Of a stretch of DNA of 27,539 nucleotides, positions 9 through 15,993 are shown piece by piece. Made by a program: the position numbers and the translations under genes. The notes beneath the pieces are model-generated. The model was not told the origin of the DNA, searched no databases, and saw only the letters and a program-made list of their open reading frames with translations. The DNA is from a virus, in the IMG/VR virus record IMGVR_UViG_3300030102_001242, positions 1 through 27,539 of that record; one strand, given 5' to 3'. Position 1 is the first letter of the stretch. Each line of letters opens with the position of its first letter.

Positions 9-809
9 CTATTTAACTCGACCCTCTGCATACGCTTGCAAGATTTCGTCTGACAAAGCGTTGTAACGCTCTGGGTCGTTTTTCATAAGTTTAATAATGT
101 CAGCACGACGATAGACTTTCCTACGAGACCCTTCTGCTGTACCACGAGCGTTGCCTGTTGCTGCAGACTTTACGGAACTCTTACGGGCTGCTTTCTCAGC
201 TTGAGCCGTCTGCTGAACCACTTGATTACGTTCTTTCCAAAGCGTAAAAAGTTCGTCAGCAGAATCATAATCGTAACCTTGGTCTGCTTCTACAAACAGT
301 TTAGTCCTAACCTTTGATCCCTTGATCCACTCAGCAAACTTAGGGTCTTGCAGAATAGTATCCATTTCTGGATGATTAGCTTTGAGCTGTGCAAGAGTAG
401 CCTGTTGTTTGTATTGTTGAGTGTAAGCTTCTGCTTCTCTAATCTTAGGGTGGTTATCTATTGCCCTGTTTACAGCGTTTTGCGGATCTACAAAAAAATC
501 TACATCTTCGCCTGTTTGTTGCTCTTCTTGAGGTGCTGGTTGTGTGTTGAGTTCTGTCTGAATGTAGCCATCAACAACTTTACGTAACTCACCTACTTCC
601 GTACTCTGTTTGCCTGAAAACTTCTCAAGCTCTTGGTGCATCTGTACGAGTTCTTCGACAGACTTACCTTGGTACTTTTCTGGAACATCAGGCTCTTGTA
701 CAGGTTGTTCCTCTTCTTGAGGAGTCTCTACGGTGTCCTGTGTGTCGAGTTGGTCTGTTGTTTCTAGTTCCTCTTCTAGACGCTCATCAATAATTGTCGC
801 TCTTGACAT
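9..809 (-). CDS. Scaffold-like (capsid assembly) protein
   Basis: The protein has about 266 aa and is very acidic and Gln/Glu-rich at the N-terminus (residues 1-45), followed by an EKYQGKSVEELVQMHQELEKF helical segment. The centre is helical and charged, and the C-terminus is basic (KAARKSSVKS, GSRRKVYRRADI). This composition, together with its place downstream of the portal and just before where a capsid gene would be expected (off the left edge), is typical of podovirus scaffolding proteins. I infer the role from these two points, not from a catalytic motif. The start is ATG at 809. A GTG directly in front of it (810-812) is an alternative, with GGGG about 8 nt upstream of it. The stop lies 8 nt from the window edge, so the next gene of the late operon is missing. 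Confidence 0.7.
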   Translation of the reverse strand: MSRATIIDERLEEELETTDQLDTQDTVETPQEEEQPVQEPDVPEKYQGKSVEELVQMHQELEKFSGKQSTEVGELRKVVDGYIQTELNTQPAPQEEQQTGEDVDFFVDPQNAVNRAIDNHPKIREAEAYTQQYKQQATLAQLKANHPEMDTILQDPKFAEWIKGSKVRTKLFVEADQGYDYDSADELFTLWKERNQVVQQTAQAEKAARKSSVKSAATGNARGTAEGSRRKVYRRADIIKLMKNDPERYNALSDEILQAYAEGRVK

Positions 810-847
810 CACTAAAGTTACCCCGCCTTTCTAGGTTATGGAGATTA

Positions 848-1087
848 TTATTGGGATTGACTCTCACGAGCTTCCCTTCCTCGTCGCCCAGCTTCTTCGT
901 GTTCTCGTACCCACTTCATGTGTCTTCCGGGGAAGTCACCAGTAGATCCATCGAGGATGCACGGTGTTGCTGAAACGATTTTTGTAGCGTTAGCACCACA
1001 TCCGCACCTAGTGGTTGTGGTATCCTGATCTACAAATTCTTCAAATATGTGTCCGTTAGTGCAACGAAAATCAAATACTTTAATCAT
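848..1087 (-). CDS. Small zinc-ribbon protein, FmdB-like
   Basis: This 79-aa protein begins with a beta-rich segment carrying Cys9, His13, Cys28 and Cys30 (RCTNGHIFEEF ... RCGCGA). That resembles the FmdB-type putative regulatory zinc ribbon seen in many bacteria and phages, although the usual CxxC of the first knuckle is replaced by CxxxH. The C-terminal third is a charged Arg/Glu tail. The start ATG lies inside the end of the previous gene (8-nt overlap), which implies coupled translation. The function is unknown; zinc or metal binding is an inference from the residues. Confidence 0.7.
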   Translation of the reverse strand: MIKVFDFRCTNGHIFEEFVDQDTTTTRCGCGANATKIVSATPCILDGSTGDFPGRHMKWVREHEEAGRRGREARESQSQ

Positions 1088-1328
1088 TATCTGTGTTAAG
1101 CTCGTCGTAATTAGTATTTGTTGTAGACTCTAAATTTAAAATGTATGCTAAGACGTTGATCTGTCCTTTACGCATGTACAAATCATTTGTATCTTTAGTA
1201 GCTTCAACACTGTTAATCACTAAAGCATTCTGTTTAAGTTCTTCAGTTAGCTGTTTCCAACCATCAGTAGAAAACAGGGTGAAGTAATTGTCGTAGTACT
1301 GCTGTGTTTCTTGATCTAGCGAGGCCAT
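1080..1328 (-). CDS. Small acidic protein of unknown function
   Basis: This 82-aa protein is predicted to be mostly helical: an N-terminal DQETQQYYDNYFTLF stretch, a middle ELKQNALVINSVEAT segment and a polar Asn/Asp-rich tail. I do not recognise a domain family. Similar short proteins commonly sit between portal and scaffold genes in marine podoviruses, from general knowledge only. It is the first gene downstream of the strong internal promoter at 1357-1385, and its stop overlaps the start of the zinc-ribbon gene by 8 nt, so the two are probably translated together. Confidence 0.65.
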   Translation of the reverse strand: MASLDQETQQYYDNYFTLFSTDGWKQLTEELKQNALVINSVEATKDTNDLYMRKGQINVLAYILNLESTTNTNYDELNTDND

Positions 1329-2053: not shown

Positions 2054-2344
2054 TTACCATTTCACCTTGTTAGCCCAGTAAGCCGCAGACATTTTACCTT
2101 TGGCTATGTTTTTTCTGTGCCTTGCTTTAAACGAAGCACGTTTCTTTTTCATACGGTCAGACTCACCTGCTTTGGGTTTACCTGCAGTACTTGCACCTTG
2201 CTCACCAAACCGAATAGTTTTTACTTTGTCGCCTTCCTTAGCCACAACTACGTGAGACTTTTTAGGATGGTTAGGTGTCCTTTTCGGTTTGTTGTATCCG
2301 CTTACTCCTGCTCGTTCCAGCCTTGGATCCTTTTTCTTGGGCAT
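2054..2344 (-). CDS. DUF6321-like small basic protein
   Basis: This 96-aa protein reads KKKDPRLERAGVSGYNKPKRTPNHPKKSHVVVAKEGDKVKTIRFGEQG in its first half, matching from memory the DUF6321-type family (D-P-R-L...NKPKRTPxHPxKSHxVVAKEGxxxKxIRFGxQG). The second half is Lys/Arg-rich (KKKRASFKARHRKNIAKGKMSAAYWANKVKW). The function of the family is unknown to me. The gene starts at ATG 2342-2344, which overlaps the portal stop as TAATG, so its translation is coupled to the portal. A third-frame gene (2271-2465) overlaps its first 74 nt. Confidence 0.8.
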   Translation of the reverse strand: MPKKKDPRLERAGVSGYNKPKRTPNHPKKSHVVVAKEGDKVKTIRFGEQGASTAGKPKAGESDRMKKKRASFKARHRKNIAKGKMSAAYWANKVKW

Positions 2345-2465
2345 TAACCTTCGCCTCCAAGCTGTCTAATTGTGTTTGCAAACTGTTGAGCTTGTCCTTC
2401 TGTTCCTTGAACGCTTGGTTGACTTGGTTGAACAGGTTGTTGATTTCGGTTTGCGTCATTAACAT
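2271..2465 (-). CDS. Overlapping coiled-coil protein (out of frame)
   Basis: This 64-aa frame straddles the junction of the portal and the DUF6321-like gene, out of frame with both. Hydrophobic residues at 8, 11, 15, 18, 26, 29, 33, 36 and 40 follow a 3-4 heptad spacing (one polar position and one stutter near 22-26), which predicts a coiled coil. AAGG lies 8 nt upstream of ATG 2463-2465. Over the shared stretch the portal frame encodes only a Gln/Asn/Pro-rich tail, which looks less constrained than this frame. I think it is a real overlapping gene, but without homologues this remains an inference. Confidence 0.5.
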   Translation of the reverse strand: MLMTQTEINNLFNQVNQAFKEQKDKLNSLQTQLDSLEAKVNAQEKGSKAGTSRSKRIQQTEKDT

Positions 2466-4365
2466 TTTCTTTGCCTTGGATTTCCCTTTGCTTTAACAAA
2501 CGATCTGCTACTTTTAATCGACGTTCAAATTCTTTGTCGTCCTCGTCACCTTCTCTTAGGTTACGTGTAATAGCGTTAATACGTTCAATTTCTAGCTCTT
2601 GAGGTGCAAGCTGAGCTTCAATAGAGTACTTGTCTGCACGGGCTTGAGATTCGGCTGACTGTCCTACAAGAGCTGCTGTTTGTGCTTGCTGGAACTCCAG
2701 TTGTGATTGCTGTGCAGCCATAGCCATCTGTTGAGCTTGTGGGTTAGGCTGGTTAGCTTGTTGCATCGCCGCAATAAGTTCTTCACGGTTAGACAAGTTC
2801 ATGTTGTCTATGATGCTCTGGATCAACACAGGGTACAGAGGACTGTCCTGTTGCATTGTTTGTAGCAGTTGTACAAGCTGAGTAACCTCGTACTCACGAG
2901 CAATGATGCCTAGAGTGCTGGTAGGAATAAACTTGTAGTCCGCTACGGGGTAGTTCTCAGGGTCAAACTGCATGTATCGGTGTGCAGCTTTGGTTACAAA
3001 CGGTAACAGGAACGACTGCTGAAAGTTAATCAGAGTCCGCTTGTGGCGTTTAATAATAGCCCCAAGAGACATAGAAATACCAGCGGCAGTAGCTTCACCG
3101 TTAACACTGCCAGCAATTCCTGCTGAATCAACTGCTCCTGTAGCCTGCTGAACCATCTGCTGAAGCGACGCTGCTTGTGCGAAAGTGATTTGACTGACTT
3201 GTCCGAAGTTAAACGGCTGGAGTACTTCACGAGGATCTCCGTTAGTTAAGATCATCTTACCGGGTCGAACTTCTGGCTTAGCCCCTCTAGGAAGCCGTGT
3301 AGCGTCCACAGCCATCATTGGATGGATTGTGAGACTCAAAGCGTCTATTCTTGCTCTAAGCTCTGTATCAAGCGCCTTCTGGCTGTTATAGCCCTTCTCA
3401 CAGACACCACGACCCCAGAATCGGCCCGGCACGACATCCCAAGGGAATGCAACGACTGGGCGGTCGTTCATCATGTAAGGGTTGGCTTCCGCCTTGAGAA
3501 GAGTACCGCCGTTAGCAATAACTACGATTGCTTCGACGTACATCGAGTCTTCTTCTACTTCTACGCCTTCTTCTTCCAAAAGCTCACGAGGCACGAGACC
3601 GTAGTACTTAGTCAACCGAACCTTGTCATCATTGTAGAGGGTTAGGTCTTGATCGGGTTCTAAGTCTGTATCTGCGGCTGCAGACTCAATAAACGCGTCT
3701 CTGTAGATGTTTTGCTCTTGTAGTAACTCAACGCTGTGCTTACTAACAAACTCATCGACAGCTACACCGTAAGCATCTTCCACTGAGGTAGCCACAGGAT
3801 CAATCAAAAAGTTTTGGGGTAGTACTGGCTTTAGTTTTACAATAACGCGGTCAGTGATGTTTACTCCAACTGCTTGAAGGTCACCGCCCATAATTGGCTC
3901 AGTTGCTGGAGCCATTTCTTTTATTTCTTCTAAAACTACTTCACCGATTCCTGTTCCGAAAACTGCAGCGTTGATGAGACATTCTGCTACTGCTTTACGA
4001 ACTTTACAGGTTTCAAAGTCTTCAGTTAGTTTTTTACGCAGGTACGTCATGTCCTGATTTTGTGGGTCGTTTACGTCGTCTTGTATATCAAAAAACTTAC
4101 CGCGACCAAATGTAGCTTCTTCTAGTTCTGCGACGTTAGACTCTACGGCTTGTTGTAAGGCAGGTGAAATAATTCGAGATCGCTCTGATCCTCGTTGAGA
4201 ATCGTTTGGATCCCACTGACCACGCCACAAACGGTAGTACTCTTCGAAACGCTCTTCGTAGTTTGACTCGTAGTAATCGCGCCAGTCTTCACACTTTGTC
4301 ATTACCCACTCTTCCAAGGACTCTTGGATCATCAGTGGGTCTGGGCTGTAAATTTCATCTGCCAT
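2344..4365 (-). CDS. Portal protein
   Basis: This 673-aa protein sits immediately downstream of TerL and one tiny gene, has the size and order of a podovirus portal, and begins with an acidic Tyr/Trp-rich helical segment (WRDYYESNYEERFEEYYRLWRGQW). The central portion includes a WDVVPGRFWGRGVCEKGYNSQKALD segment and a Gln-rich helical region (residues about 560-600) typical of the portal stem and barrel. The C-terminal 40 residues are low-complexity Gln/Pro/Asn. It forms the dodecameric ring at the capsid vertex through which DNA is packaged. The family is assigned by position, length and overall character. Its TAA overlaps the next ATG. Confidence 0.8.
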   Translation of the reverse strand: MADEIYSPDPLMIQESLEEWVMTKCEDWRDYYESNYEERFEEYYRLWRGQWDPNDSQRGSERSRIISPALQQAVESNVAELEEATFGRGKFFDIQDDVNDPQNQDMTYLRKKLTEDFETCKVRKAVAECLINAAVFGTGIGEVVLEEIKEMAPATEPIMGGDLQAVGVNITDRVIVKLKPVLPQNFLIDPVATSVEDAYGVAVDEFVSKHSVELLQEQNIYRDAFIESAAADTDLEPDQDLTLYNDDKVRLTKYYGLVPRELLEEEGVEVEEDSMYVEAIVVIANGGTLLKAEANPYMMNDRPVVAFPWDVVPGRFWGRGVCEKGYNSQKALDTELRARIDALSLTIHPMMAVDATRLPRGAKPEVRPGKMILTNGDPREVLQPFNFGQVSQITFAQAASLQQMVQQATGAVDSAGIAGSVNGEATAAGISMSLGAIIKRHKRTLINFQQSFLLPFVTKAAHRYMQFDPENYPVADYKFIPTSTLGIIAREYEVTQLVQLLQTMQQDSPLYPVLIQSIIDNMNLSNREELIAAMQQANQPNPQAQQMAMAAQQSQLEFQQAQTAALVGQSAESQARADKYSIEAQLAPQELEIERINAITRNLREGDEDDKEFERRLKVADRLLKQREIQGKENVNDANRNQQPVQPSQPSVQGTEGQAQQFANTIRQLGGEG

Positions 4366-4511: not shown

Positions 4512-5762
4512 TTAGTATCCTGCTATTACGTCTAGTATTTCGTGGTCGTCAATTTCGTAGTCGTAGTCATACGCTACTTGTGCTAACTGGTCTATGTACG
4601 CGAGTGCGTCAACTAAGTCATCGTGTGTTAGCACATCTGGAAACTGAAACAGTTGATCTAAGAATCTGTTGTTCCACTCACCTTTGTTTAAGCTAACGTA
4701 GCCGTTTTCAAACCGTCCTTGTAAAGCCCACATAACCCTGTCAGTTTTCTTTCGGTTACCGTGGGTTAGTTCTTCTACCCTAAAAAATGTTCCGTACCGT
4801 TTCATTAAATCTGTTAGAGGAGACATTACAGCTTGTTTAGCAATTCCTTTTTCAATACCAACACTAACGGGTCTGTAATCTCTAACGGTCTGAAATATCT
4901 TGGTGGCAGTCTCGTTAAGGCTCCACCGCCCATGTACAATGTTATCAACGTACCAACCATCAGGATTAACTTTAACAACAGCGATTGCGGTTTCATCTAG
5001 TTTAGTGTTCTTAGTTCGTTTTTTGTTTACGTCTTCAAATCCTGCGAGGTCGACAGCAATATAGTAATCGCCTACGTCTGGTTCTTCACCAAACTGGACC
5101 CAGCCTTCTTTAAACATTTCGGAGCCTCTTGCTTCAAATGAGGCCATGAACTCTTGTCGGAAGGCGTAACTCGACATGGACTTCTTTGCTGTGTCAATTT
5201 CTTCAGGGTCGAGTATGGGGTTGTCATAACTGGTAAAGTGCCACCCCTTGTAAGTTTCATCGTCTCCTAGCTCCGCAAGTTTATACAGTTCGTAGAAGTG
5301 GTTCCTACCCATAGGAGTACCTATGAACATCGCTGATCCCTTTTGGTCAGCTAGTGCTGGACGGAGAATCTGCTCCCATACGTCAGGCTTCATGTCTGCG
5401 TACTCGTCCATCACGAGAAACTTCAAGGACACACCACGCATTGTCTCTGGCCTGTCGGCTCCTTTGAGACTAATCGTGGCCCCGTTGACCAGCCTGATCT
5501 GCAGGTTGTTGATGTGTGATCCTGCAATCACAGGGTGTCCTAGCTCTAGGAGGGTTTGCCACATGATGTCACGGGCTTGTCCCTGAGTAGGCGCAACGTA
5601 AAACACTTGCCCTTTGTCGGACTGTAGTGCATTGATAATTAACATCCACGCTGCAAGTCTAGACTTTCCTGTCCGTCTTCCAGCAGCAACTACCTTGAAC
5701 CGTGTTGAGTCAGAATAGACTTCTTGTTGCCACGGTAGTAACTGTACGTTTAAGTCAGTCAC
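4512..5762 (-). CDS. terL: Terminase large subunit
   Basis: This 416-aa packaging motor has an N-terminal ATPase with a Walker A-like AGRRTGKS at residues 27-34 and a Walker B FLVMDE ending in Asp119-Glu120, plus a coupling motif near FIGTPMG (146-152). The C-terminal RNase H-like nuclease shows the acidic residues Asp238 (YIAVDLAG), Glu304 (VGIEKG) and the THDDLVDALAY cluster (381-385). It translocates DNA into the procapsid and cuts the concatemer. The length is normal for a compact TerL. It starts 5 nt after the endolysin stop and is followed by the 44-aa membrane gene after one base. Confidence 0.95.
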   Translation of the reverse strand: MTDLNVQLLPWQQEVYSDSTRFKVVAAGRRTGKSRLAAWMLIINALQSDKGQVFYVAPTQGQARDIMWQTLLELGHPVIAGSHINNLQIRLVNGATISLKGADRPETMRGVSLKFLVMDEYADMKPDVWEQILRPALADQKGSAMFIGTPMGRNHFYELYKLAELGDDETYKGWHFTSYDNPILDPEEIDTAKKSMSSYAFRQEFMASFEARGSEMFKEGWVQFGEEPDVGDYYIAVDLAGFEDVNKKRTKNTKLDETAIAVVKVNPDGWYVDNIVHGRWSLNETATKIFQTVRDYRPVSVGIEKGIAKQAVMSPLTDLMKRYGTFFRVEELTHGNRKKTDRVMWALQGRFENGYVSLNKGEWNNRFLDQLFQFPDVLTHDDLVDALAYIDQLAQVAYDYDYEIDDHEILDVIAGY

Positions 5763-6805: not shown

Positions 6806-6843
6806 TATCCAGTACCTGTCTGTTTTACACGGTTTCGCATGAG

Positions 6844-6873
6844 TCCCCTAACTTAGGTATACAGATGAGGGGA
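6844..6873 (-). promoter_or_regulatory. Leader hairpin of the minus-strand operon
   Basis: Within the predicted 5' leader of the terminase operon, TCCCCT and AGGGGA form a perfect 6-bp stem around an 18-nt loop. It lies between the predicted transcription start and the first ATG, so it could influence mRNA stability or translation start. There is no U-run, so it is not a classical terminator. Confidence 0.3.
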
Positions 6874-6887
6874 TCTATACGAACCCT

Positions 6888-6915: not shown

Positions 6916-6944
6916 ATTATACCATACTTTTATCCAAAAGTCAA
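6916..6944 (-). promoter_or_regulatory. Strong sigma70 promoter of the packaging operon
   Basis: On the minus strand the -35 box is TTGACT (6939-6944) and the -10 box is a perfect TATAAT (6916-6921), with a 17-bp spacer. The region between contains the same ACTTTT-N4-AAAAGT dyad (6926-6941) as the promoter at 1357-1385. The predicted start lies about 100 nt upstream of the ATG at 6805. This indicates host-type RNA polymerase transcription of the late arm, in keeping with the absence of a phage polymerase gene in the window. Confidence 0.85.
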
Positions 6945-7165
6945 GCTTTATTTATGGTAATATTTCATAAGAATACTAATTATCTCCTTAGTTTCCACCC
7001 CATTTAGTCTCCTTTAGGCCGCCCAAGGAAACACGAGTTAAAACAAAGGGTTAGCACACGAGTTAATTTAGGTATTATTACCCCTTTTTTCTAAAATTAC
7101 CCTCTTGCAAACTTGGGTGGCAACCACGCGCGACGACATGCGTCAACCCCGGCCCCCGGCCCAAG
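6945..7165. other. Divergent intergenic segment upstream of the origin
   Basis: No convincing gene is visible here. The segment is AT-rich at its left end (GGTAATATT at 6956-6964), then contains the 11-bp direct repeat ACACGAGTTAA at 7031-7041 and 7056-7066, and a T-run near 7085-7090. It may hold the plus-strand promoter for the replication arm and part of the origin's unwinding region. Confidence 0.4.
7051..7078 (+). promoter_or_regulatory. Candidate plus-strand promoter (weak)
   Basis: TTAGCA (7051-7056) and TATTAT (7073-7078) are separated by 16 bp and give partial matches to the -35 (4 of 6) and -10 (5 of 6) consensus. This is the best plus-strand candidate I find upstream of the early operon, but it is much weaker than the two minus-strand promoters. 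A second weak candidate has TTGACG at 7390-7395. Confidence 0.25.
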
Positions 7166-7270
7166 TTATCCACAGGTTTTCCACAGGCCCGAGTTATCCA
7201 CAGGTTACACACAGGGTTATCCACAGGGTTACTAAAGGTAACACAGGTAACACAGCCAAGGTAACACAGG
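7166..7270. other. DnaA-box array: candidate replication origin
   Basis: Three exact DnaA boxes TTATCCACA lie at 7166-7174, 7194-7202 and 7217-7225. Near matches TTTTCCACA (7177-7185) and TTACACACA (7205-7213) fall between them, giving start-to-start spacings of 11, 17, 11 and 12 bp. All five continue as CACAGG. They are followed by three copies of GGTAACACAG at 7237, 7246 and 7260, which share the CACAG core and look like iterons. TTATCCACA is the established high-affinity site of bacterial DnaA. The array sits where transcription diverges, with AT-rich stretches on both sides (about 6885-6970 and 7350-7380). I infer a host-DnaA-dependent origin; titration of DnaA is an alternative. Confidence 0.75.
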
Positions 7271-7669
7271 TGTGTGAGCCAGAGAAGTACCCTCAGGCAG
7301 ACACCAGCACACGCCAGTCATTCCCGCTTACCACACAAGTCCTAGCCCGTCAATAATTATTTATTGGTAATATTCACACTTTTACCCCATTGACGGCTCC
7401 AAAACCTTCAAGCAAGATATTCAACAAGTGGCAGGGAAAGCGCCAGAGGTAGTGAGCCTACCAACGGACCCCGCAAGTACTGTAAGCCCGACCTCTTCCT
7501 CGAGGGTTCTAACTTGGAGCGGTTGTCACAGGACGCCAACGGATCACATGGGCCACCATGCTCCCGAGGTCATCCACCGACGCGAAGACCGGCAGACGCC
7601 ACCACGCGAAAGCAAGGGCCAGCCAACGGGCAGACAATCCACGGCAACAACGGCTCACGCGAGTAACAA
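7271..7669. other. Long leader/intergenic stretch without a clear gene
   Basis: About 400 nt hold no frame with a good start, ribosome binding site and protein-like composition. One frame is open without ATG or GTG from about 7393 to 7663 and encodes a Pro/Gly/Arg-rich product, which I judge to be chance or a decayed gene. There is an AT-rich patch at 7350-7380 with GGTAATATT (7366-7374). The remainder is clearly richer in G+C than the flanks. It could be an untranslated leader, the remainder of the origin, or a packaging site. Confidence 0.4.
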
Positions 7670-7716
7670 GGTGGCAACATTAGAGGACATGGGTTGTGTC
7701 TTCCAATGTTGTTACC
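7670..7716 (+). promoter_or_regulatory. Long hairpin in front of the early operon
   Basis: Two 19-nt arms (7670-7688 and 7698-7716) pair with one mismatch and three G-U-type pairs around a 9-nt loop. The right arm ends only a few nucleotides before AGGAG and 16 nt before the ATG of the first plus-strand gene. There is no following T-run, so a terminator is unlikely. Processing by RNase III, as in T7 early mRNA, or control of translation start are possible roles. Confidence 0.5.
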
Positions 7717-7732
7717 AATAGGAGTACAGGAA

Positions 7733-8170
7733 ATGCGAACACAGGAACAGATGTTCGAACAGACACAGCGATACCGCGAGAACAATGATTGCACGGTACG
7801 CGCTTTGGCTGGAGCCTTCGACACATCATACGGCAAGGCCCACCGACACTTGGCAAAGTACGGAAGGCCGCACCGCAAAGGCCCCAGCTCAGCGGCGGCA
7901 ACAGCGGCAACCAAAGCATTTGCCGAAAAGCTAGGCCACACCGCAAAGGTTCGGGACGATCTCAAAGGGTTAACCCTGAACCAGTTTTACAAGGATTACG
8001 CGAGCAGGGGCGGCATTTGGGTGGTATTTATCAGAGGCCACGCAATCGGTTTCAGAGACGGCAAGACACTGGACTGGACTGGAGACGAGGTTACAGGTAA
8101 GATCGTTAGACGAAAAACAGCCAAGGTTGGCTACAGAGCAGACAGCGCAGTTATTCAAATAAAGGGTTGA
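7733..8170 (+). CDS. Putative papain-like fold protein (Cys-His-Asp)
   Basis: This 145-aa protein starts at ATG 7733, chosen because AGGAG lies 8 nt upstream; an upstream in-frame ATG would fall inside the hairpin. It contains NNDCTVRALAGAF with Cys20 at the start of a helix, then GGIWVVFIRGHAIGFRDGKTLDW with His103 and Asp114. The order Cys-His-Asp, with the His in a beta-strand after a VxFxRGHA motif, resembles papain-like or C39-like cysteine peptidases and related inactive folds found in small phage proteins. A protease or deamidase acting on host factors is possible. The family is inferred from the residue pattern alone. It is the first gene of the plus-strand arm. Confidence 0.65.
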   Translation: MRTQEQMFEQTQRYRENNDCTVRALAGAFDTSYGKAHRHLAKYGRPHRKGPSSAAATAATKAFAEKLGHTAKVRDDLKGLTLNQFYKDYASRGGIWVVFIRGHAIGFRDGKTLDWTGDEVTGKIVRRKTAKVGYRADSAVIQIKG

Positions 8171-8174
8171 ATTT

Positions 8175-8378
8175 ATGCTGAATAGAGACCGAAAACACGT
8201 ATGGCAATGTCAAATCTTGATTGATGATGTGTGGGTTGATAGACTAAAAAAACCGTACCCACGCAAGTCGGCATTTGCTGAGAAAGAATGGTGCTTCCAC
8301 AATCTTGGGACGCCGTTAGACGCCCTGAGAGTTATAGACATCGAAACTGAAACAAACCAAACGAGGGTAAACAAATGA
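8175..8378 (+). CDS. Small protein of unknown function
   Basis: This 67-aa protein has a beta-rich N-terminus (HVWQCQILIDDVWVDRL), a basic centre and a C-terminal ALRVIDIETETNQTRVNK. AAAGGG lies about 8 nt upstream of ATG 8175. Its TGA overlaps the next ATG (ATGA). I recognise no family; the small beta-alpha arrangement is typical of accessory early phage proteins. Confidence 0.65.
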   Translation: MLNRDRKHVWQCQILIDDVWVDRLKKPYPRKSAFAEKEWCFHNLGTPLDALRVIDIETETNQTRVNK

Positions 8379-8731
8379 ACGCATACGCAGAAGCAAGACA
8401 AGACGCACAAAGCCGGGCAGAAGAATTACGTTCGGAGATAGTCGAAGCATACTCCACCAGCACGCGCTGGCGAGGATTAGAAGAGGAGATGCTGGAGCGA
8501 GGATGGGAGATAGCAGACATAGACAGTATCTGGACACAGGACAACTGGAATTTAGTAACAGCAACACGGTCACAGGATTTCGACAGGTATCAGGACGCGT
8601 GCGACACAGCAGGCTCGTGCTTTGATTCTCTCGACGACCACATGACAGCGATCTCGTTTTTCATCCGTGAAAGTTTGTTGATGGAAACACTCAACGAAAT
8701 GTTCCACCAAAAAATTGTGCAAGGAGATTGA
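8375..8731 (+). CDS. Helical protein of unknown function
   Basis: This 118-aa acidic protein is predicted to be almost wholly helical: ARQDAQSRAEELRSEIVEAYSTSTRWRGLEEEMLERGWEIADIDSIW, then a second segment RYQDACDTAGSCFDSLDDHMTAISFFIRESLLMETLNEMF. It begins by ATGA overlap with the previous gene and is followed after 3 nt by a small membrane protein gene. I cannot name a function. Confidence 0.65.
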   Translation: MNAYAEARQDAQSRAEELRSEIVEAYSTSTRWRGLEEEMLERGWEIADIDSIWTQDNWNLVTATRSQDFDRYQDACDTAGSCFDSLDDHMTAISFFIRESLLMETLNEMFHQKIVQGD

Positions 8732-8734
8732 ACA

Positions 8735-8818
8735 ATGGAATCAGACATTATTTGGCTTTGGGGTTTCGGTTGCCTTGTGTTAGTCGCTTGGCTCATATTC
8801 AGCGAGGAGGGTATATAG
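8735..8818 (+). CDS. 27-aa single-pass membrane peptide
   Basis: This gene encodes MESDIIWLWGFGCLVLVAWL followed by IFSEEGI: one hydrophobic helix with acidic residues at both ends. A perfect AAGGAG lies 8 nt before the ATG (8721-8726), and its end contains the GGAGG used by the next gene. The strong ribosome binding site and tight spacing support translation. It probably inserts in the host membrane; the function is unknown. Confidence 0.6.
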   Translation: MESDIIWLWGFGCLVLVAWLIFSEEGI

Positions 8819-8820
8819 TT

Positions 8821-9024
8821 ATGGAATCTTATCCGTGCATGTTGACGGGAGAGTACTTCGAAGGCGACCAGATCGCAGAGGGTGCGAAGTGGGTAGCGTC
8901 TCACCCAACGGAGCCTTCGTGGTCCTTTTACAAGTTGACAAACGCAGATAGCTGGGGTACAAATAGCCTCGCTTGCTTCGTAAACGCAGACATTGAACAC
9001 GCAAAGGAGAACTTAACACTATGA
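8821..9024 (+). CDS. Small protein of unknown function
   Basis: This 67-aa protein starts at ATG 8821, with GGAGG about 10 nt upstream inside the preceding gene. A longer in-frame start at 8728 would overlap the membrane peptide gene and is less likely. It includes LTGEYFEGDQIAEGAKWVASHPTEP and WSFYKLTNADSWGTNSLACFVN. The three Trp and several aromatic residues suggest a compact fold, but I recognise no family. It is coupled by ATGA to the following zinc ribbon. Confidence 0.65.
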   Translation: MESYPCMLTGEYFEGDQIAEGAKWVASHPTEPSWSFYKLTNADSWGTNSLACFVNADIEHAKENLTL

Positions 9025-9248
9025 ACGACATGCCGTGCAGTATTACAGACGACCCCCTGAACGACTACAGCCACTGGTACGAACGCACAGGGCCATACGC
9101 CAAACTTCCGCACCTGAAGAACACCATCATGTGCGAGGGGTGCTACCAGTTGGTGGACAGGGTACACGAGGACACCGGCTACTGTAAGGAGTGCCAGCAC
9201 GACTACGAGGTAGAGCAGTACTACAAACACGCAGGAGAGGAGCTGTGA
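9021..9248 (+). CDS. Small zinc-ribbon protein
   Basis: This 75-aa protein contains two CxxC knuckles: Cys38/Cys41 (MCEGCYQL) and Cys55/Cys58 (GYCKECQ), separated by 13 residues, which is a classical treble-clef or zinc-ribbon layout. The ends are acidic and aromatic. Such proteins usually bind nucleic acid or a protein partner. The immediate neighbour downstream is a sigma region 4-like HTH, so a joint role in modifying host transcription is a reasonable guess. ATGA overlap with the previous gene; GTGA overlap with the next. Confidence 0.7.
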   Translation: MNDMPCSITDDPLNDYSHWYERTGPYAKLPHLKNTIMCEGCYQLVDRVHEDTGYCKECQHDYEVEQYYKHAGEEL

Positions 9249-9451
9249 AAGAGACAGAGAAAGGAAACGTCAAACCGATGACGTACAAGCAGATCGCGGA
9301 GGTCTTGGGCATATCGCCCGAGTCCGTCCGTGCCATCGAGTTCAAGGCACTGCGGAAGCTACGCAACCAAGGGAAACTTGACAAGTTCCGCGACATGTGT
9401 GACGGTACGTGGCGAGACGAGGGCAAAGGTTTAGGGAGGAATACCCAATGA
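9245..9451 (+). CDS. Stand-alone sigma-70 region 4-like HTH protein
   Basis: The 68-aa product starts at GTG 9245, overlapping the previous TGA as GTGA; an upstream ATG at 9191 would overlap the zinc ribbon widely. Residues about 13-39 read TYKQIAEVLGISPESVRAIEFKALRKLR, a near-perfect sigma-70 region 4 helix-turn-helix, the part that reads the -35 box and contacts the RNA polymerase beta flap. Regions 1-3 are absent. A free region 4 could compete with, recruit or bridge host RNA polymerase, as some phage regulators do. It is the only visible transcription regulator candidate in the window. Confidence 0.85.
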   Translation: MKETEKGNVKPMTYKQIAEVLGISPESVRAIEFKALRKLRNQGKLDKFRDMCDGTWRDEGKGLGRNTQ

Positions 9452-9654
9452 CAACGACACGAGGTGAGGTAGATCCACAGTACGAGATAATGCTGTCAGA
9501 CATGGCTGAGTGGTCCCACTGGTCCGCCAGCGTGTACGAGGGCGACGGGAGCAAACTAGAGGACCACTACGCTTACTACCGCAAGTGGTCTTACAGCAAG
9601 CTGGAGAGCGAGTGGGAGGGTTTCTTCGGGAGGGACTACAGCGATGCACTGTAA
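9448..9654 (+). CDS. Acidic aromatic-rich protein of unknown function
   Basis: This 68-aa protein starts at ATG 9448 with GGGAGG 8 nt upstream and ATGA overlap with the HTH gene. It has many Tyr and Trp residues (MAEWSHWSASVYEGDG, DHYAYYRKWSYSKLESEWEGFFG) and is acidic. I recognise no family. Small acidic, aromatic early phage proteins can mimic DNA or block host enzymes, but nothing here proves it. Confidence 0.65.
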   Translation: MTTTRGEVDPQYEIMLSDMAEWSHWSASVYEGDGSKLEDHYAYYRKWSYSKLESEWEGFFGRDYSDAL

Positions 9655-9871
9655 AGCCTGTGACTGCTTACTGGAGGAAGAAATAGACAACAACCTACAA
9701 CTCTGCTTTGGTTGTAACTTCGTGGCTATAGCGGCTCAGATGGGCCTCGACGAGCTGATCGAAGCTGACCAAAATAATTCAGGTAATATTACACAGCACG
9801 GTGTGAATCTGGAAGAAGTCCAGCAAATCGCTGATACAATATTAACGAAGGTTAGCAAACAAGATGGTTAA
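9644..9871 (+). CDS. Small zinc-ribbon protein
   Basis: This 75-aa protein has Cys3/Cys6 (HCKACDC) and Cys21/Cys24 (LCFGCNF), giving a four-cysteine zinc ribbon at the N-terminus, followed by helices (VAIAAQMGLDELIEADQ and LEEVQQIADTILTKV). It starts 11 nt inside the end of the previous gene, with GGAGG upstream. It is the last gene of the early cluster before a 33-nt gap and the SSB gene. Function unknown. Confidence 0.65.
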   Translation: MHCKACDCLLEEEIDNNLQLCFGCNFVAIAAQMGLDELIEADQNNSGNITQHGVNLEEVQQIADTILTKVSKQDG

Positions 9872-9904
9872 CCTTTTTGTTAAACAACCAAGGGACTAGA
9901 ACTT

Positions 9905-10288
9905 ATGAATACTATAGAAGGCTTAGTTGCATTCAGTAACGTAACCCAACACGACGTGTACAACGGTCAGAGTACTGGTAAATACGCTCTCACCATCACC
10001 ATGGAAGATGACGTAGCTGATGAGCTGGCGTCCAAAGGTGTAAAGATCAAGGAGTACCAGCCAGAGGACAAGGTATTCAAGCAACGCAAGTTCACCAGTA
10101 AGTTTGACTTACGTGTCATCGACGCAGACGACAACCCTTACACTGGTGAAATCCCCCGCAACTCCCGTGTCCGTTTGCTGTACAACCTCGGCCCAGCCGT
10201 AGGTGAACACGGGGCATCGACGTACCTCAACGCCATCCGTGTACTCGAAGAAGCACCTCAAGAAGTCGCAGAAGGTGTTGATTTCTGA
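9905..10288 (+). CDS. Single-stranded DNA-binding protein (OB-fold type)
   Basis: This 127-aa protein is beta-rich (VAFSNVTQHDVYNGQSTGKYALTITM, KFDLRVIDADDNPY, NSRVRLLYNLGP) and ends in an acidic tail with a terminal Phe (EAPQEVAEGVDF). That is the hallmark of phage SSBs such as T7 gp2.5, whose tail contacts polymerase and helicase. It stands directly before the primase-helicase, the usual place. It coats single-stranded DNA at the fork. AGGGA lies about 9 nt upstream of the ATG, and its TGA overlaps the next ATG (TGATG). The family is inferred from position, size and tail. Confidence 0.8.
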   Translation: MNTIEGLVAFSNVTQHDVYNGQSTGKYALTITMEDDVADELASKGVKIKEYQPEDKVFKQRKFTSKFDLRVIDADDNPYTGEIPRNSRVRLLYNLGPAVGEHGASTYLNAIRVLEEAPQEVAEGVDF

Positions 10289-11898
10289 TGGAGTCTAAAT
10301 TCCTACACCACGAGGAATGTCCCAAGTGCGGAAGTAGGAACAACGTGGCGGTCTACTCTAACGGTGGCCGCCATTGTTTTACTCCGGGCTGTGACTACCA
10401 CGTTAACGGCGAGACAGGAGAAGAACTTCAGGTGACTACGCCCAGTAACTTACAGCTAGGTGGTGTGGTTGCTTCTATCCACGACCGCAAGCTGTCACTA
10501 AATACTGTAAAAAAATACCAAGTATCGGTGGACTACGCACCGGATGGTAAAATTGCCAAACATTTCTACCCGTACCACGACGTCAACACTGGCGAGATAG
10601 TTGCCACCAAGTGTCGCATCGTCAACACCAAAGACTTTCTCTGTACAGGTAACATGACCAACGTAGGTCTGTTCGGTCAGCGACAGTGCAGGGGTACAGG
10701 TAAGTACATCACCATCACAGAAGGCGAGGTAGACGCCATGTCTGTGTACGAGATGTTCGGACAGAAGTGGGACGTAGTGTCCCTTCGGTCTGGTGCATCG
10801 AGTGCCGCCAAGGAGATCAAGGCACAACTAGAGTGGCTCGAAGGCTACGAGAACGTAGTCATCTGCTTTGACCAAGACAAGGCAGGAGAGTTAGCAACAG
10901 ATCAGATCAAAGACCTGTTCAGCCCCAACAAACTCAAGATATGTAAGCTACCTCTGAAGGACGCCAGCGAAATGCTCATGGCTAACAGGGTGCAGGAGTT
11001 TACACGGGCGTGGTGGGACTCCAAGGTTTACAGACCCGACGGCATCGTCGCCGGTTCAGATACGTGGGATGCCCTCGTAAACAAACGACAGATACAGAGT
11101 GTACCGTACCCTTGGGAGGGGTTGAACGATGTCACACGAGGCCACAGACCGTACGAACTTGTCACTATCACAAGCGGTAGTGGTATGGGAAAGTCCCAGT
11201 TTATCCGAGAGCTTGAGTACGATCTGCTTCAACGCACAGACGCCAACATCGGTGTACTTGCACTGGAGGAGGACGTCGCGACTACAGCTCTGGGAATTAT
11301 GTCGGTGGCAGCATCAAGGCGACTCCACTTGGAGGAAGACACGCCTGTTGTTGAGCTTAGACCTCATTGGGAAGCAACGATGGGGTCTGGACGTTATTAC
11401 CTGTTCGATCACTGGGGATCAACATCAGCCGATGAGCTTCTTTCAAGAGTACGGCACATGGCAAAGGCCTGCGACTGCAGATATATCGTACTCGACCACC
11501 TGTCAATCGTGGTTTCTTCTCAAGAGAACGGGGACGAACGGAAAGCTATAGACGAGATTATGACCAAGCTACGCACACTGGTGGCAGAGACAGGCATCAC
11601 CCTGTTCCTCGTGTCCCACTTACGGCGCGGCACAGGGACAGCTCACGAGGACGGTGGACGTATCAGTCTGCAGGACTTACGTGGGTCTCAGTCTATCGCT
11701 CAGTTATCTGATATGGTGATCGGTATGGAACGTAACCAACAGGCCGAAGACCCAGCCGAACGAAACACTACGGCTGTCAGGGTGCTGAAGAATCGGTACG
11801 CCGGAGAGACAGGACCAGCGTGTTGGCTACGGTACGACAGGTTCACAGGCCGTATCCAAGAGTGCGGTAACCCTAACCCGAGGGAGGCAGAGTTTTGA
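10288..11898 (+). CDS. T7-type bifunctional DNA primase-helicase
   Basis: The 536-aa protein has an N-terminal zinc ribbon (Cys11, Cys14, Cys30, Cys35), a TOPRIM primase core with Glu145 (ITITEGEVDA) and the DQD motif at 195-197 (VICFDQDKAG), and a DnaB/RecA-like helicase. The helicase has Walker A SGSGMGKS at 296-303, Walker B in YIVLDHLS and the LFLVSHLRR sensor motif. It unwinds the fork and makes primers for the lagging strand. The length is close to T7 gp4 (566 aa). The TGATG start overlap couples it to SSB, and TTGA couples it to the polymerase. Confidence 0.95.
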   Translation: MESKFLHHEECPKCGSRNNVAVYSNGGRHCFTPGCDYHVNGETGEELQVTTPSNLQLGGVVASIHDRKLSLNTVKKYQVSVDYAPDGKIAKHFYPYHDVNTGEIVATKCRIVNTKDFLCTGNMTNVGLFGQRQCRGTGKYITITEGEVDAMSVYEMFGQKWDVVSLRSGASSAAKEIKAQLEWLEGYENVVICFDQDKAGELATDQIKDLFSPNKLKICKLPLKDASEMLMANRVQEFTRAWWDSKVYRPDGIVAGSDTWDALVNKRQIQSVPYPWEGLNDVTRGHRPYELVTITSGSGMGKSQFIRELEYDLLQRTDANIGVLALEEDVATTALGIMSVAASRRLHLEEDTPVVELRPHWEATMGSGRYYLFDHWGSTSADELLSRVRHMAKACDCRYIVLDHLSIVVSSQENGDERKAIDEIMTKLRTLVAETGITLFLVSHLRRGTGTAHEDGGRISLQDLRGSQSIAQLSDMVIGMERNQQAEDPAERNTTAVRVLKNRYAGETGPACWLRYDRFTGRIQECGNPNPREAEF

Positions 11899-13541
11899 AC
11901 CTAGTCTTCTGTGACATAGAGACTGACGGTCTAGACGCCACAACTATCTGGTGTGCAGTCTGCCGTCACAACGGAGAGAGCGAGGTAATCTGTAATGAAG
12001 AAGACTTCAAAGCGTATGTATCGCGTAAAGCCCCGGCCATGTTCGTTTTGCACAACGGAATTGGCTTTGATGTTCCTGTGGTTGAGCATCTTTGGGACTT
12101 TACTTTTGACAGGACTATGGTCACTGATACCCTGATACTGTCACGCTTGGCTAACCCCAGCCGGTCTGGTGGACACTCCCTGCGGAACTGGGGTAACATC
12201 CTTGGCTTCCCCAAGGGCGACCACGAGGACTGGTCACAGCTCACACCAGAGATGATCGACTACTGCTTACGTGACGTAGAGCTAACAGAGGCTGTGTACA
12301 ACAGGCTTCAACAGGAACTCGACGGGTTCTCAGAAGAGAGTATCGAACTAGAACATCACGTTCAGTACCTCATGCACCAACAAGAACGGAACGGCTGGTT
12401 GCTCGACGAACGCCTGTGTCACATGCTCTGCGCTAAGTTCAAGGAGCGTATGAATGAAATTGAACATAGTCTACAAGAGATTTTCCCGCCGATTGTTGAA
12501 GAGAGATACTCAGAGAAAACTGGTAAGAGACTCAAGGATAAAGTCACTGTATTCAACGTTGGGTCGCGGCAACAAGTGGCCGACAGGCTTACACCTAAGG
12601 GTGCAGTTTGGACGAGCCTCACTCCGACAGGCAAGCCGGTTGTTGATGAGAAATCGCTTAAAGAGAATCATCATGTCCCCGAAGCGCAACAAGTCTTGGA
12701 GTACCTCTTACTGCAAAAGCGTTACGCACAAGTAAACTCGTGGCTGGAACACGTCAAGGACGACGGTAGGGTACACGGGCGGGTGATAAGTAACGGTGCT
12801 GTCACTGGACGTATGACACACCAACGGCCCAACATGGCACAAGTTCCTTCTGCTAGTTCAGAGTACGGGGAGGAGTGCCGTAAGTGTTGGATTGTACCAG
12901 AGGGTTACAAGCTAGTAGGCTTTGATGCCAGTGGACTAGAACTACGGATGCTCGCTCACTACATGGGCGACGAGGAGTTTACAGATGCTCTGCTTGACGG
13001 AGACATTCACACCAGAAATCAACTTGCTGCGGGTCTTCAGACAAGACCTCAGGCAAAGACTTTCATATATGCTTTCCTGTACGGAGCCGGAGACGCTAAA
13101 ATCGGAACCATCGTCGGAGGAACTGCAGCAGATGGTCGAGTTCTTCGGAACCGCTTTCTTCGAAATACACCTGCTCTTGAAGCTCTACGAGACAGAGTTG
13201 GGCAAGCGTCTAGGCGAGGCTACCTACGAGGACTCGACGGACGACGACTCTGGGTTCGATCCGAGCATAGTGCATTAAACACTTTACTGCAGGCCGCAGG
13301 TGCTATCGTAATGAAACGAGCGTTGCTCCTCTTGGACGACGCAGCTTCTGAACAGGGTCTGAACTATCGCTTCATAGGAAACATACACGATGAGATTCAA
13401 TCGGAGGTGGTTACAGAACAAGCAGAGATTTACGGTCAACTCGCAGTCGGCTGCCTCAAGGAGGCTGGCGTATCGTACAACCTCAGATGTCCACTGGACG
13501 GGGAGTTCAAAATTGGAACCACATGGGCAGACACACACTGA
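11895..13541 (+). CDS. DNA polymerase, family A, T7-like
   Basis: The gene starts at TTG 11895 (overlap TTGA) with GGGAGG 7 nt upstream; later starts would cut off the exonuclease motif. The 3'-5' exonuclease has Asp7/Glu9, Asn54/Asp59 and Tyr123/Asp127. The polymerase has motif A DASGLEL with Asp344, motif B Arg384-Lys388-Tyr392 (AKTFIYAFLYGAG) and motif C HDE at 498-500. The residue equivalent to E. coli Phe762 is Tyr, as in T7. At 548 aa it is about 150 shorter than T7 polymerase. The gap between Exo III and the VFNVGSRQQ block is about 70 residues shorter, which corresponds to loss of the thioredoxin-binding loop. Confidence 0.95.
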   Translation: MNLVFCDIETDGLDATTIWCAVCRHNGESEVICNEEDFKAYVSRKAPAMFVLHNGIGFDVPVVEHLWDFTFDRTMVTDTLILSRLANPSRSGGHSLRNWGNILGFPKGDHEDWSQLTPEMIDYCLRDVELTEAVYNRLQQELDGFSEESIELEHHVQYLMHQQERNGWLLDERLCHMLCAKFKERMNEIEHSLQEIFPPIVEERYSEKTGKRLKDKVTVFNVGSRQQVADRLTPKGAVWTSLTPTGKPVVDEKSLKENHHVPEAQQVLEYLLLQKRYAQVNSWLEHVKDDGRVHGRVISNGAVTGRMTHQRPNMAQVPSASSEYGEECRKCWIVPEGYKLVGFDASGLELRMLAHYMGDEEFTDALLDGDIHTRNQLAAGLQTRPQAKTFIYAFLYGAGDAKIGTIVGGTAADGRVLRNRFLRNTPALEALRDRVGQASRRGYLRGLDGRRLWVRSEHSALNTLLQAAGAIVMKRALLLLDDAASEQGLNYRFIGNIHDEIQSEVVTEQAEIYGQLAVGCLKEAGVSYNLRCPLDGEFKIGTTWADTH

Positions 13542-14022
13542 AGTAACACTCACTAACAGCGAACGTCAGGTAGCCGAGTTCATAGCACAGCGTAGGTTTG
13601 ACAGTAACAGGGAAAAGAATATCTCCAACAACAGAAAGGGGCCACAGTCAGACTACGAAACTGATCTTGAAGGCATGGCCTCTGAACTGGCAGCAGCCAA
13701 GGCTCTGAACGTGTGGCCCGACTTAACTGAAGAGATCCAAGTACATGACCTCACTTACAACGGAGTCACCATAGACGTCAAGGCTACCAAGTACCAGACA
13801 GGCAGACTAATAGCTGGTCGCCAAAAGAAAAACAAAGCCTGTGATTACTACATGTTACTCGTGGGTGAGTGTCCTACTTATGATATAAAGGGTTTCGCAA
13901 AACGTGAAGACTTGCTGAGCGAAGATACAATAACAGACTTGGGTTGGGGTAAGCTCCACGCTTTGACGCAAGACAAACTAACATCGCTGTCAGACTTTTT
14001 AGAGGAGTTCCAGAATGAATGA
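13513..14022 (+). CDS. Putative PD-(D/E)XK nuclease
   Basis: Started at TTG 13513, with GGGAG 7 nt upstream and a 29-nt overlap with the polymerase gene; no ATG gives a sensible start downstream. The 169-aa product has a helix GMASELAAAKALN with Glu58, then GVTIDVKATKY with Asp88 and Lys90, followed by a basic GRQKKNK segment and CDYYMLLVG. Glu - Asp-x-Lys in this order is the PD-(D/E)XK restriction-like core. The early part (ERQVAEFIAQRRFDSNREKNISNNRKG) is helical and basic and may contact DNA. Specific role unknown. The start is less certain than the frame. Confidence 0.7.
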   Translation: MEPHGQTHTEVTLTNSERQVAEFIAQRRFDSNREKNISNNRKGPQSDYETDLEGMASELAAAKALNVWPDLTEEIQVHDLTYNGVTIDVKATKYQTGRLIAGRQKKNKACDYYMLLVGECPTYDIKGFAKREDLLSEDTITDLGWGKLHALTQDKLTSLSDFLEEFQNE

Positions 14023-14305
14023 GAAGATAACAGATACGAATCGTTTGGGTGACATAGCGGAATTCTACGTAACAACTTGGCTGTGGGACGAGGGTTACGA
14101 AGTCTTCCGCAACGCTGGATGCACCGGAGCTATCGACTTAGTTGCTCTCAGGAACGGAGTGCCTGTGTTCATCGATGTAAAATCTAAGAACACTGATACA
14201 CGGTACGGTCATTCACGTACAGAAGAACAGAAACTTTTACGTGTACAGCTCGTAGAGTTCAACGGACAAACCCGTAAGTGTCGGTGGGTGGAGCATGAAG
14301 AATGA
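14015..14305 (+). CDS. UPF0102/YraN-like PD-(D/E)XK endonuclease
   Basis: The 96-aa protein has RLGDIAEFYVTTWL with Glu16, CTGAIDLVAL with Asp41 and FIDVKSKN with Asp54 and Lys56. This is the compact Holliday-junction-resolvase-like fold of UPF0102 (YraN). It is slightly shorter than bacterial YraN. It overlaps the preceding nuclease by 8 nt and the next one by 4 nt (ATGA), so all are translated from one message. A role in recombination or DNA processing is likely; the exact substrate cannot be read from the sequence. Confidence 0.8.
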   Translation: MNEKITDTNRLGDIAEFYVTTWLWDEGYEVFRNAGCTGAIDLVALRNGVPVFIDVKSKNTDTRYGHSRTEEQKLLRVQLVEFNGQTRKCRWVEHEE

Positions 14306-15165
14306 ACATACACACACTGGTACAAGACATATACAAGACGGTGGCCGACAAAGAGCCAGCCGAAGGTGTTGATCTGTACGACGAGATAGACCAGTTCGGG
14401 GAAAACTGTAAACGTCTGATGACCAACCTGTTCACTGAGAAAAGGGACGGACGTACCCTGCGTATGTCTAACATCGGACGTAAAGATCGCTACCTGTGGA
14501 ACGCGGTCAACAACCCAGACGTGTCAGAAGAACTATCACCTAACACTTACGTTAAGTTTATGTACGGCCACTTGATCGAAGAGATGTTGTTATTTTTAAC
14601 AAAACTATCTGGACACGAGGTTACTGATGAACAAAAGAGGTGTGAGGTTTCGGGCATTACAGGGTCTATGGACTGTAAGATTGATGGTGTTGTCACTGAT
14701 GTTAAGTCTGTGTCCACTTTTGGGTTTAAGAAATTCAAGGACGGAAGTATGGCTCTTGACGACCCGTTTGGCTACGTTGCTCAAATTAAGGCTTATGCAC
14801 ATTCAGAGGGAAGAGACAACCGTTTTGGTTGGTTAGCTATGGACAAGCAGAACGGACACCTGACGTACCTGATGTACGATACAGAGGACACGAAGGCTTT
14901 CGTTCACAACACAATCTCTTACGACATCGAAGAACGTATAGAACACATCAAAGAAGTTGTTCAACAAGAAGAACCACCCGAGCATTGTTACGAGGCTGTT
15001 GCAGACGGTAAAAGCGGCAACAAAAAACTGGCAGTAGGTTGTTCGTACTGCTCTTACAAAAAAACTTGTTGGCCTGACGTTAGAGGCTTTGCCTACGCTA
15101 ACGGCCCACGTTACTTAGTGGAGGTGGCTAATGAGCCGCAAGTCCCGGAAATCGAACTTAGGTAA
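14302..15165 (+). CDS. RecB/Cas4-like PD-(D/E)XK exonuclease with cysteine cluster
   Basis: The 287-aa protein shows GHLIEE (89-94), GSMDCKIDG with Asp124, TDVKS with Asp133 and Lys135, and QIKAY (161-165), which together form the RecB-type nuclease core. A C-terminal cysteine set (Cys229, Cys247, Cys250, Cys256; CSYCSYKKTC) could hold an iron-sulphur cluster, as in Cas4 and AddB relatives, although there the first cysteine is normally N-terminal. There are no CRISPR genes nearby. It probably takes the place of the T7 gp6 exonuclease in host DNA breakdown and recombination. That function is an inference from position. Confidence 0.85.
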   Translation: MNIHTLVQDIYKTVADKEPAEGVDLYDEIDQFGENCKRLMTNLFTEKRDGRTLRMSNIGRKDRYLWNAVNNPDVSEELSPNTYVKFMYGHLIEEMLLFLTKLSGHEVTDEQKRCEVSGITGSMDCKIDGVVTDVKSVSTFGFKKFKDGSMALDDPFGYVAQIKAYAHSEGRDNRFGWLAMDKQNGHLTYLMYDTEDTKAFVHNTISYDIEERIEHIKEVVQQEEPPEHCYEAVADGKSGNKKLAVGCSYCSYKKTCWPDVRGFAYANGPRYLVEVANEPQVPEIELR

Positions 15166-15541
15166 GTACAGGTCAGGATTCGAAAAAGATGTCGCGCAGC
15201 AGCTACAACCATTTGGTTTTACGTATGAGTCGTGCCAAGTCCCGTACAGAATTGAACGAAAGTACACCCCAGACTTTGTGTACGAAAAACAAGGTGTTAC
15301 TTATTACATCGAATGTAAAGGGTACTTTAGAGCGGGAGACACCCAGAAGTACCGCTCAATCTCTAACTGCCTCGGAAGCAATCAGGAACTTATCTTCGTA
15401 CTTATGAAGCCAAACCAAAAAGTGAGTAAAAGTACCAGAAATACGATGGCCCAGTGGTGTGACAAAAATAACATAAAATGGTACGATACTAGTACGCTCA
15501 AGGAATTAGTCGATTATGTCTCTGACACTAGAAGAAACTAA
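15131..15541 (+). CDS. T7-type endonuclease I (Holliday junction resolvase)
   Basis: The 136-aa protein closely follows T7 gp3: KYRSGFEKDVAQQL with Glu18, YTPDFVY with Asp48, YIECKGYF with Glu61 and Lys63, and the late CDKNNIKWYD block. These are the known metal-binding and catalytic residues of the resolvase, which acts as an intertwined dimer to cut branched DNA before packaging. The length is near that of T7 gp3 (149 aa). GGAGG lies upstream of ATG 15131, and the gene overlaps the RecB-like exonuclease by 35 nt, a long overlap. Confidence 0.93.
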   Translation: MSRKSRKSNLGKYRSGFEKDVAQQLQPFGFTYESCQVPYRIERKYTPDFVYEKQGVTYYIECKGYFRAGDTQKYRSISNCLGSNQELIFVLMKPNQKVSKSTRNTMAQWCDKNNIKWYDTSTLKELVDYVSDTRRN

Positions 15542-15707
15542 AGAGCGGTTGTTGCGGTTGTACGACCCCGACGATCTTCTAGAAGCCCTACAAATATCAG
15601 CAGCAGAAATACTAGACCGCTTTGAAGACAAGCTCATCAAACGCCTAGAGTTCTTTTACGAAGAATTTCAGGAGCAAGAAGAGGAATACGATGAAGATGA
15701 GTATTGA
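15516..15707 (+). CDS. Small acidic helical protein
   Basis: The 63-aa product reads LTLEETKERLLRLYDPDDLLEALQISAAEILDRFEDKLIKRLEFFYEEF and then a run of Glu, Gln, Asp and Tyr. It is strongly acidic and helical. It overlaps endonuclease I by 26 nt and the DUF3310 gene by 17 nt. I know similar short LTxEExxxRLLxxYDPDxLLExL proteins from other phages, with no known role. Confidence 0.7.
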   Translation: MSLTLEETKERLLRLYDPDDLLEALQISAAEILDRFEDKLIKRLEFFYEEFQEQEEEYDEDEY

Positions 15708-15993
15708 TGATGCAACACCCGAAGAGTGGAACGTATCCAGTAAAACAGCGTACGGTAAACTGTACCACCCTCAAGATATAAACAACCCCGTCACCCAGCC
15801 AGACCACTACAACCGTGGGGCCATTGAAGCTATCGAAGCAATCAAGGCTTCTATGCACCCACAAGAGTACAAGGGTTACCTCAAAGGCAACTGCTTGAAG
15901 TACCTCTGGCGCTACGAATACAAGAACGGTTTAGAAGACCTCAAGAAAGCCAAGGTCTACCTAGAGTGGTTGATAAAGGAAGTAGGCTCGTGA
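15691..15993 (+). CDS. DUF3310 family protein
   Basis: The 100-aa protein has the DUF3310 signature: QPDHYNRGAIEAIEAIKASM, then GYLKGNCLKYLWRYEYKNGLEDLKKAKVYLEWLI. T7 gp1.7, a member with similar features, has been described as a nucleotide kinase, but this shorter form may differ. Helical, soluble, no signal. Its place directly upstream of ribonucleotide reductase fits a nucleotide-pool role. GGA is upstream of ATG 15691 within the previous acidic gene, and its stop overlaps the next GTG start. Confidence 0.85.
   Translation: MKMSIDDATPEEWNVSSKTAYGKLYHPQDINNPVTQPDHYNRGAIEAIEAIKASMHPQEYKGYLKGNCLKYLWRYEYKNGLEDLKKAKVYLEWLIKEVGS

Follow-up and report, generated by a model that had tools for sequence, protein, structure and literature searches.

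The strength of a sigma70 promoter depends in part on TG motifs and on an AT-rich spacer of 17 bp, and in E. coli TG usually accompanies a -35 element that is weak or missing (PMC8695583). The two phage promoters described here, P1 and P2, share with the extended -10 sigma70 promoters of E. coli and Gram-positive bacteria TTGAC, a 17-bp spacer, TG at -15/-14, T at -17, TATAAT and an A-rich upstream stretch, but their spacer is more uniform, with A/T tracts on both sides of a central N4, and their -35 element is near-perfect. In phiEco32-like phages, which encode their own sigma factor (PMC8948821), the late genes likewise stand under a common promoter type, and the DNA analysed here also contains a sigma-like gene; the systems differ in that P1 and P2 follow a sigma70 consensus of the host type and that relatives have been found which share these promoters yet lack the sigma-like gene. 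In MerR-type promoters (PMC11049809), an inverted repeat begins at the AC of TTGAC and lies within the spacer, as it does in P1 and P2. There, however, the dyad is centred in a spacer of 19-20 bp, whereas the P1/P2 spacer has 17 bp and its dyad is not conserved. The vegetative promoters of Candidatus Saccharibacteria contain the same TTGACTTTT...AAGTGTGCTATAAT with the 17-bp spacing of P1 and P2, although they serve bacterial housekeeping genes and the full dyad is just one of their many variants.

The window, that is, the whole stretch of DNA analysed, is a linear IMG/VR fragment of 27,539 b (IMGVR_UViG_3300030102_001242) and constitutes the entire public record. P1 (6916..6944, minus strand) reads CTTGACTTTTGGATAAAAGTATGGTATAAT and is composed of a -35 element TTGACT at 6939-6944, a 17-bp spacer with TG at 6923-6924 and a -10 element TATAAT at 6916-6921, upstream of a TerS-like gene. 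P2 (1357..1385, minus strand) reads CTTGACTTTTACTTAAAAGTGTGATATAGT, with TTGACT at 1380-1385, a 17-bp spacer, TG at 1364-1365 and TATAGT at 1357-1362, upstream of a conserved gene for an 82-aa protein. The resemblance noted in the preliminary description can be read directly from the sequence: 24 of 30 bases are equal, and both sites have a perfect inverted repeat ACTTTT-N4-AAAAGT (6926..6941 in P1, where its left half overlaps the -35 element, and 1367..1382 in P2), giving the common layout TTGACTTTT-N4-AAAAGT-N4-TATA(A/G)T. That description omitted the extended -10 motif TRTGN, whose TG is present at -15/-14 in both promoters; with 11/12 and 10/12 matches to the -35/-10 consensus and a spacer of 17 bp, P1 and P2 have the composition of extended -10 sigma70 promoters. 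In the record, neither the full pattern nor the exact dyad has a copy besides those in P1 and P2, and the reversed control of the full pattern is absent. With up to two mismatches allowed, a dyad scan of the window gave 4 matches against 2.9 expected, showing no excess, and only the exact pair stands out. Beyond the window, the exact pattern was found in more than 119 IMG/VR stretches, far above chance.

The genes served by P1 and P2 all lie on the minus strand, and the replication genes on the plus strand. The first gene after P1 (6395..6805, minus strand) encodes a 136-aa TerS-like protein without a family match, assigned by its position and its RGRPKK-type N-terminus; a homologue sits after P1 in the related contigs L168 and L482. 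The late operon also includes the terminase large subunit TerL (4512..5762, minus strand; terminases at 33-45% identity) and the portal protein (2344..4365, minus strand; phrog_1216, E 1.8e-50). P2 is located 29 bases upstream of the 82-aa gene (1080..1328, minus strand), which is followed by a gene for a zinc-ribbon protein and by a scaffold-like gene (9..812, minus strand), the latter assigned by its position before a capsid-like gene, which comes next in L168. The DNA polymerase is nearest to those of the Pelagibacter phages HTVC103P/104P (47%), so a marine host is likely, and the uncultured phage family is probably marine. L482 is a contig binned in the Flavobacteriales MAG NORP269, and it has P1 and homologues of the TerS-like protein and of TerL (65% identity); it is a phage contig, and its binning is a weak hint that Flavobacteriales may be a possible host.

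A virion-region protein (25982-27418, minus strand) shows a very long TDTT...TDGTGDG repeat tract from long tandem repeats. Between the divergent modules, about 700 bases (6945-7694, plus strand) are without clear genes; DnaA-box-like TTATCCACA words are repeated there at about 7166-7225, and this gap is a possible replication origin. An alignment of ten relatives revealed no convincing conserved plus-strand early promoter between 6945 and 7694, and no P1/P2-type promoter was found in the early-strand module (7694-18116, plus strand) of the window or its relatives.

About 200 related contigs were gathered by TerL and 82-aa searches of IMG/VR. At the 17-bp spacing, a scan free of the dyad (TTGAC-N18-TATANT) in 80 TerL relatives placed 68 sites on the late strand and a single one on the early strand; other spacings gave 0-7. 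Among 14 longer relatives, exactly two TTGAC-N15-TG-N-TATANT sites, both on the late strand, were present in 8 records (reversed control 0), separated by about 5-8 kb in 7 of the 8; the related genomes G001 and G010 have the late-strand pair and one extra site each. Orthologous sites were recovered for P1 in 90 relatives' contigs and for P2 in 131. The logo of 140 distinct sites runs from an A-rich upstream stretch through C-TTGAC, A or T, an A tract, T(A/G)TG and TATA(A/C)T to a final A, with TG in 94%, T(-17) in 94% and C before TTGAC in 92%. Relatives with as little as about 50% TerL identity still have a promoter at both positions, though their spacers have diverged, so the pair is old. 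In a sister clade (L172, L176, L183, L187, L189 and relatives), P1 has the form TTGACTTTTGTGAAAACTTGTGTTATACT, in which a 12-bp direct repeat (ACTTxTGTG...ACTTGTG) replaces the inverted repeat. The phage regulon proposed in the preliminary description thus holds in that the two promoters form a coordinated late pair, whose placement and layout are conserved across a large phage family and which lies nearly always on the late strand; it does not hold as exclusive to phage, given that the same string is found in Saccharibacteria. From these comparisons, it is well supported that P1 and P2 form a two-promoter late regulon, which would be read by a host sigma70-type holoenzyme.

The inverted repeat had been proposed as a repressor or activator site. 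According to this proposal, a dimeric protein of phage or host origin would bind the dyad and repress or time both late promoters by blocking RNAP. In its favour, each of the window's two sites carries a perfect dyad that overlaps the -35 element and spacer as repressor sites do. The half-sites, however, neither co-vary nor are both conserved across orthologs, contrary to what is expected of a palindromic operator. We examined 135 distinct P1/P2 orthologous spacers from contigs that had been retrieved without using the dyad pattern, with shuffled right halves as the null, and detected no excess of half-site complementarity (4-pair count 294 versus 301.1 +/- 6.5 permuted, in a test that ignores relatedness). 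The right half AAAAG was present in 38 of 62 spacers with the left half ACAxx versus 16 of 51 with ACTTTT. Given that AAAAG is retained where the left half cannot pair, and that complementarity shows no excess, the operator reading is not supported. Among the seven closest P2 orthologs, the dyad is kept by L208 alone and broken in six (L125, L201, L203, L206, L207 and L123), through a broken outer C-G pair or lost A/T pairs, with the -35 element and TG intact.

A further sample, drawn by the leader RNA element described below and blind to the promoter, yielded 41 distinct P1 promoters upstream of that element, comprising 26 distinct 29-mers of the window's own clade. The dyad is perfect in 13 of these 26 variants and broken in the other 13. 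In 11 of them, the G at -18 is replaced by A, C or T; 10 of these have TTTT on the left, so that in 10 the outer pair is broken while the partner C in TTGAC remains fixed. The TTTT-N4-AAAA core is retained in 23 of the 26. The 12-bp dyad is therefore not maintained, whereas the A/T-tract core is maintained in this clade, so that some limited room is left for an operator or for the tracts to act structurally. Of 34 genomes sampled without regard to the dyad, only 3 carry it in perfect form at both promoters. In an extended -10 IMG/VR sample, the association of TTTT with AAAA gave p=0.054, and AAAT (18) was more frequent than TTTT (13), relatedness not being corrected. The dyad was thus not kept by selection across orthologous spacers, and its halves vary independently. 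A role at the transcript level was ruled out, the dyad lying upstream of the expected start.

Within one genome, the P1 and P2 spacers resemble each other modestly more than spacers taken from different genomes do (8.4 versus 7.5 of the 14 positions, p=0.0004 by permutation, relatedness not corrected), and in L149, L168, L278 and L441 they are identical, including the N4. This likeness could result from a host-specific promoter preference, from gene conversion or from a factor that reads the whole spacer. It would also be expected if P1 and P2 were recent duplicates or had been homogenised by recombination, and hence were alike by descent and not by function. The age of the pair, seen in its presence with diverged spacers at about 50% TerL identity, and the differing flanks nevertheless make this origin very unlikely as the explanation, though such processes may act on top of the main one. 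The within-genome likeness is compatible with an operator as well, as is the perfect compensated dyad ACATTT-N4-AAATGT at P2 in one lineage (L188, L290, L292 and L330), but L278 and L441 carry the same spacer at both sites and have no dyad. In a narrower form of the proposal, a host, phage or nucleoid protein would read the T4-N4-A4 core of both promoters in the window's clade, and late timing would depend on an operator evolving together with the spacer of each phage lineage. If true, this would explain both the within-genome likeness and the ACATTT/AAATGT lineage; we give it a slim chance.

The only regulator suggested earlier was the sigma-70 region-4-like HTH protein encoded on the early strand (9191..9451, plus strand), which has a clear match to PF04545 (Sigma70_r4, E 1.7e-11) and is retained by a few relatives (L071, L128, L129, L134 and L414). 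Such a protein might replace or assist region 4 of the host sigma factor at the -35 element and so create phage-specific promoters. On the other hand, the sigma factor does not accompany all carriers of the promoters: PF04545 was unmatched in 9 of 12 relatives' records, mostly fragments. G001, a 40,151-b relative whose ends repeat each other over 295 bp, is among the nine (no match at E<=0.01), although both of its promoters contain the perfect dyad. Moreover, these promoters are already near-consensus for the host sigma and have the TG, so that a helper would be unneeded. The protein is accordingly set aside as the cognate regulator, and sigma appropriation seems to us hardly credible. Searches for other regulators were similarly unproductive. 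MerR-type regulation was discarded in view of the 17-bp spacer and the lack of a MerR family gene, with MerR_1 matched in 0 of 12 records. HTH_3 (XRE-type) matches were weak and limited to 3 of 12 records, two of them being the sigma-like gene, which, as far as these two families go, may tell against an operator. Ten early proteins of G001 showed no match to a recognised DNA-binding family above the cut-off. PF00940 (single-subunit RNAP) was likewise found in 0 of 12 records, with the control genomes also without a match.

The exact dyad promoter is also present at 87 loci in bacterial genomes, mostly of Candidatus Saccharibacteria, where it precedes unrelated genes such as rplF, rnc, uvrC and dnaJ (gene names read from translations). 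The pattern is hence not phage-specific, contrary to what had been supposed, and its use as a housekeeping promoter in Saccharibacteria counts against a phage operator, which, with all the evidence taken together, we regard as improbable. Eleven Saccharibacteria genomes contain 16-60 extended -10 promoters each versus 0-1 in the control. Among the 138 sites listed, the spacer starts with TTTT in 39% and the full dyad is found in 5, and TTTT and AAGT are weakly associated (OR 2.65, p=0.011, relatedness not corrected). These Saccharibacteria (L443-L522) have the common vegetative promoter consensus TTGACTTTTTNNNNTAAGTGTGCTATAATG. That phage and Saccharibacteria have converged on one string is consistent with the transcription machinery favouring it. 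In cultured phages, a BLAST search with the 32-mer returned scattered promoter-like matches without a common gene context (Pseudoalteromonas Slicky01, Methylophilales MEP401, and Listeria and Lactococcus phages), and a literature search for the motif string gave nothing relevant among the top matches.

In our judgement, P1 and P2 are very probably late promoters for the host RNAP, in which the dyad is incidental to two separately constrained A/T tracts. Host RNAP with a primary (sigma70/RpoD-type) sigma factor would read them directly as near-consensus extended -10 promoters, through the A-rich upstream stretch, CTTGAC, the 17-bp spacing, TRTGN and TATAAT. P1 would launch the packaging genes, and P2 would restart transcription at the scaffold/capsid block, the late timing being suggested by the genes served. 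The first tract would be an A/T run directly after TTGAC, where TTTT or AAAN are both accepted, and the second an A run plus GT ahead of the extended -10, AAAA[G/A]TATG; both may act through spacer flexibility or curvature. In the window's clade, the two tracts would happen to be complementary, and the inverted repeat would arise because two separately constrained elements meet. Against this explanation stand the retention of TTTT-N4-AAAA in 23 of the 26 distinct P1 sequences from the window's clade, equally expected of an operator, the within-genome likeness of the spacers, the ACATTT/AAATGT lineage and the weak TTTT/AAGT association in Saccharibacteria.

Between P1 and the TerS-like gene lies a conserved structured leader RNA (6832..6886, minus strand), in which the helices GUUCGUA/UGCGAAC and CCCCU/AGGGG flank a conserved loop. 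A complete scan detected it in 110 IMG/VR stretches. In 50 of the 52 distinct elements its second helix takes one of three forms, CCCCU/AGGGG, CCCUU/AAGGG or CCCUC/GAGGG, with compensatory changes; an Rfam search of the window gave no match. This hairpin is a candidate for a new cis-acting RNA element and is probably a more novel item than the promoter dyad.

Sequence alone has thus sufficed to define the two late promoters of a large, uncultured family of phages, and these promoters carry host-type signals. They indicate that a perfect palindrome over a -35 element and spacer can come from two independent A/T-tract preferences, and therefore that promoter dyads need a co-variation test before a regulator is proposed. 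The leader RNA beside P1 could, in turn, add a new RNA element to the late region of this phage family.
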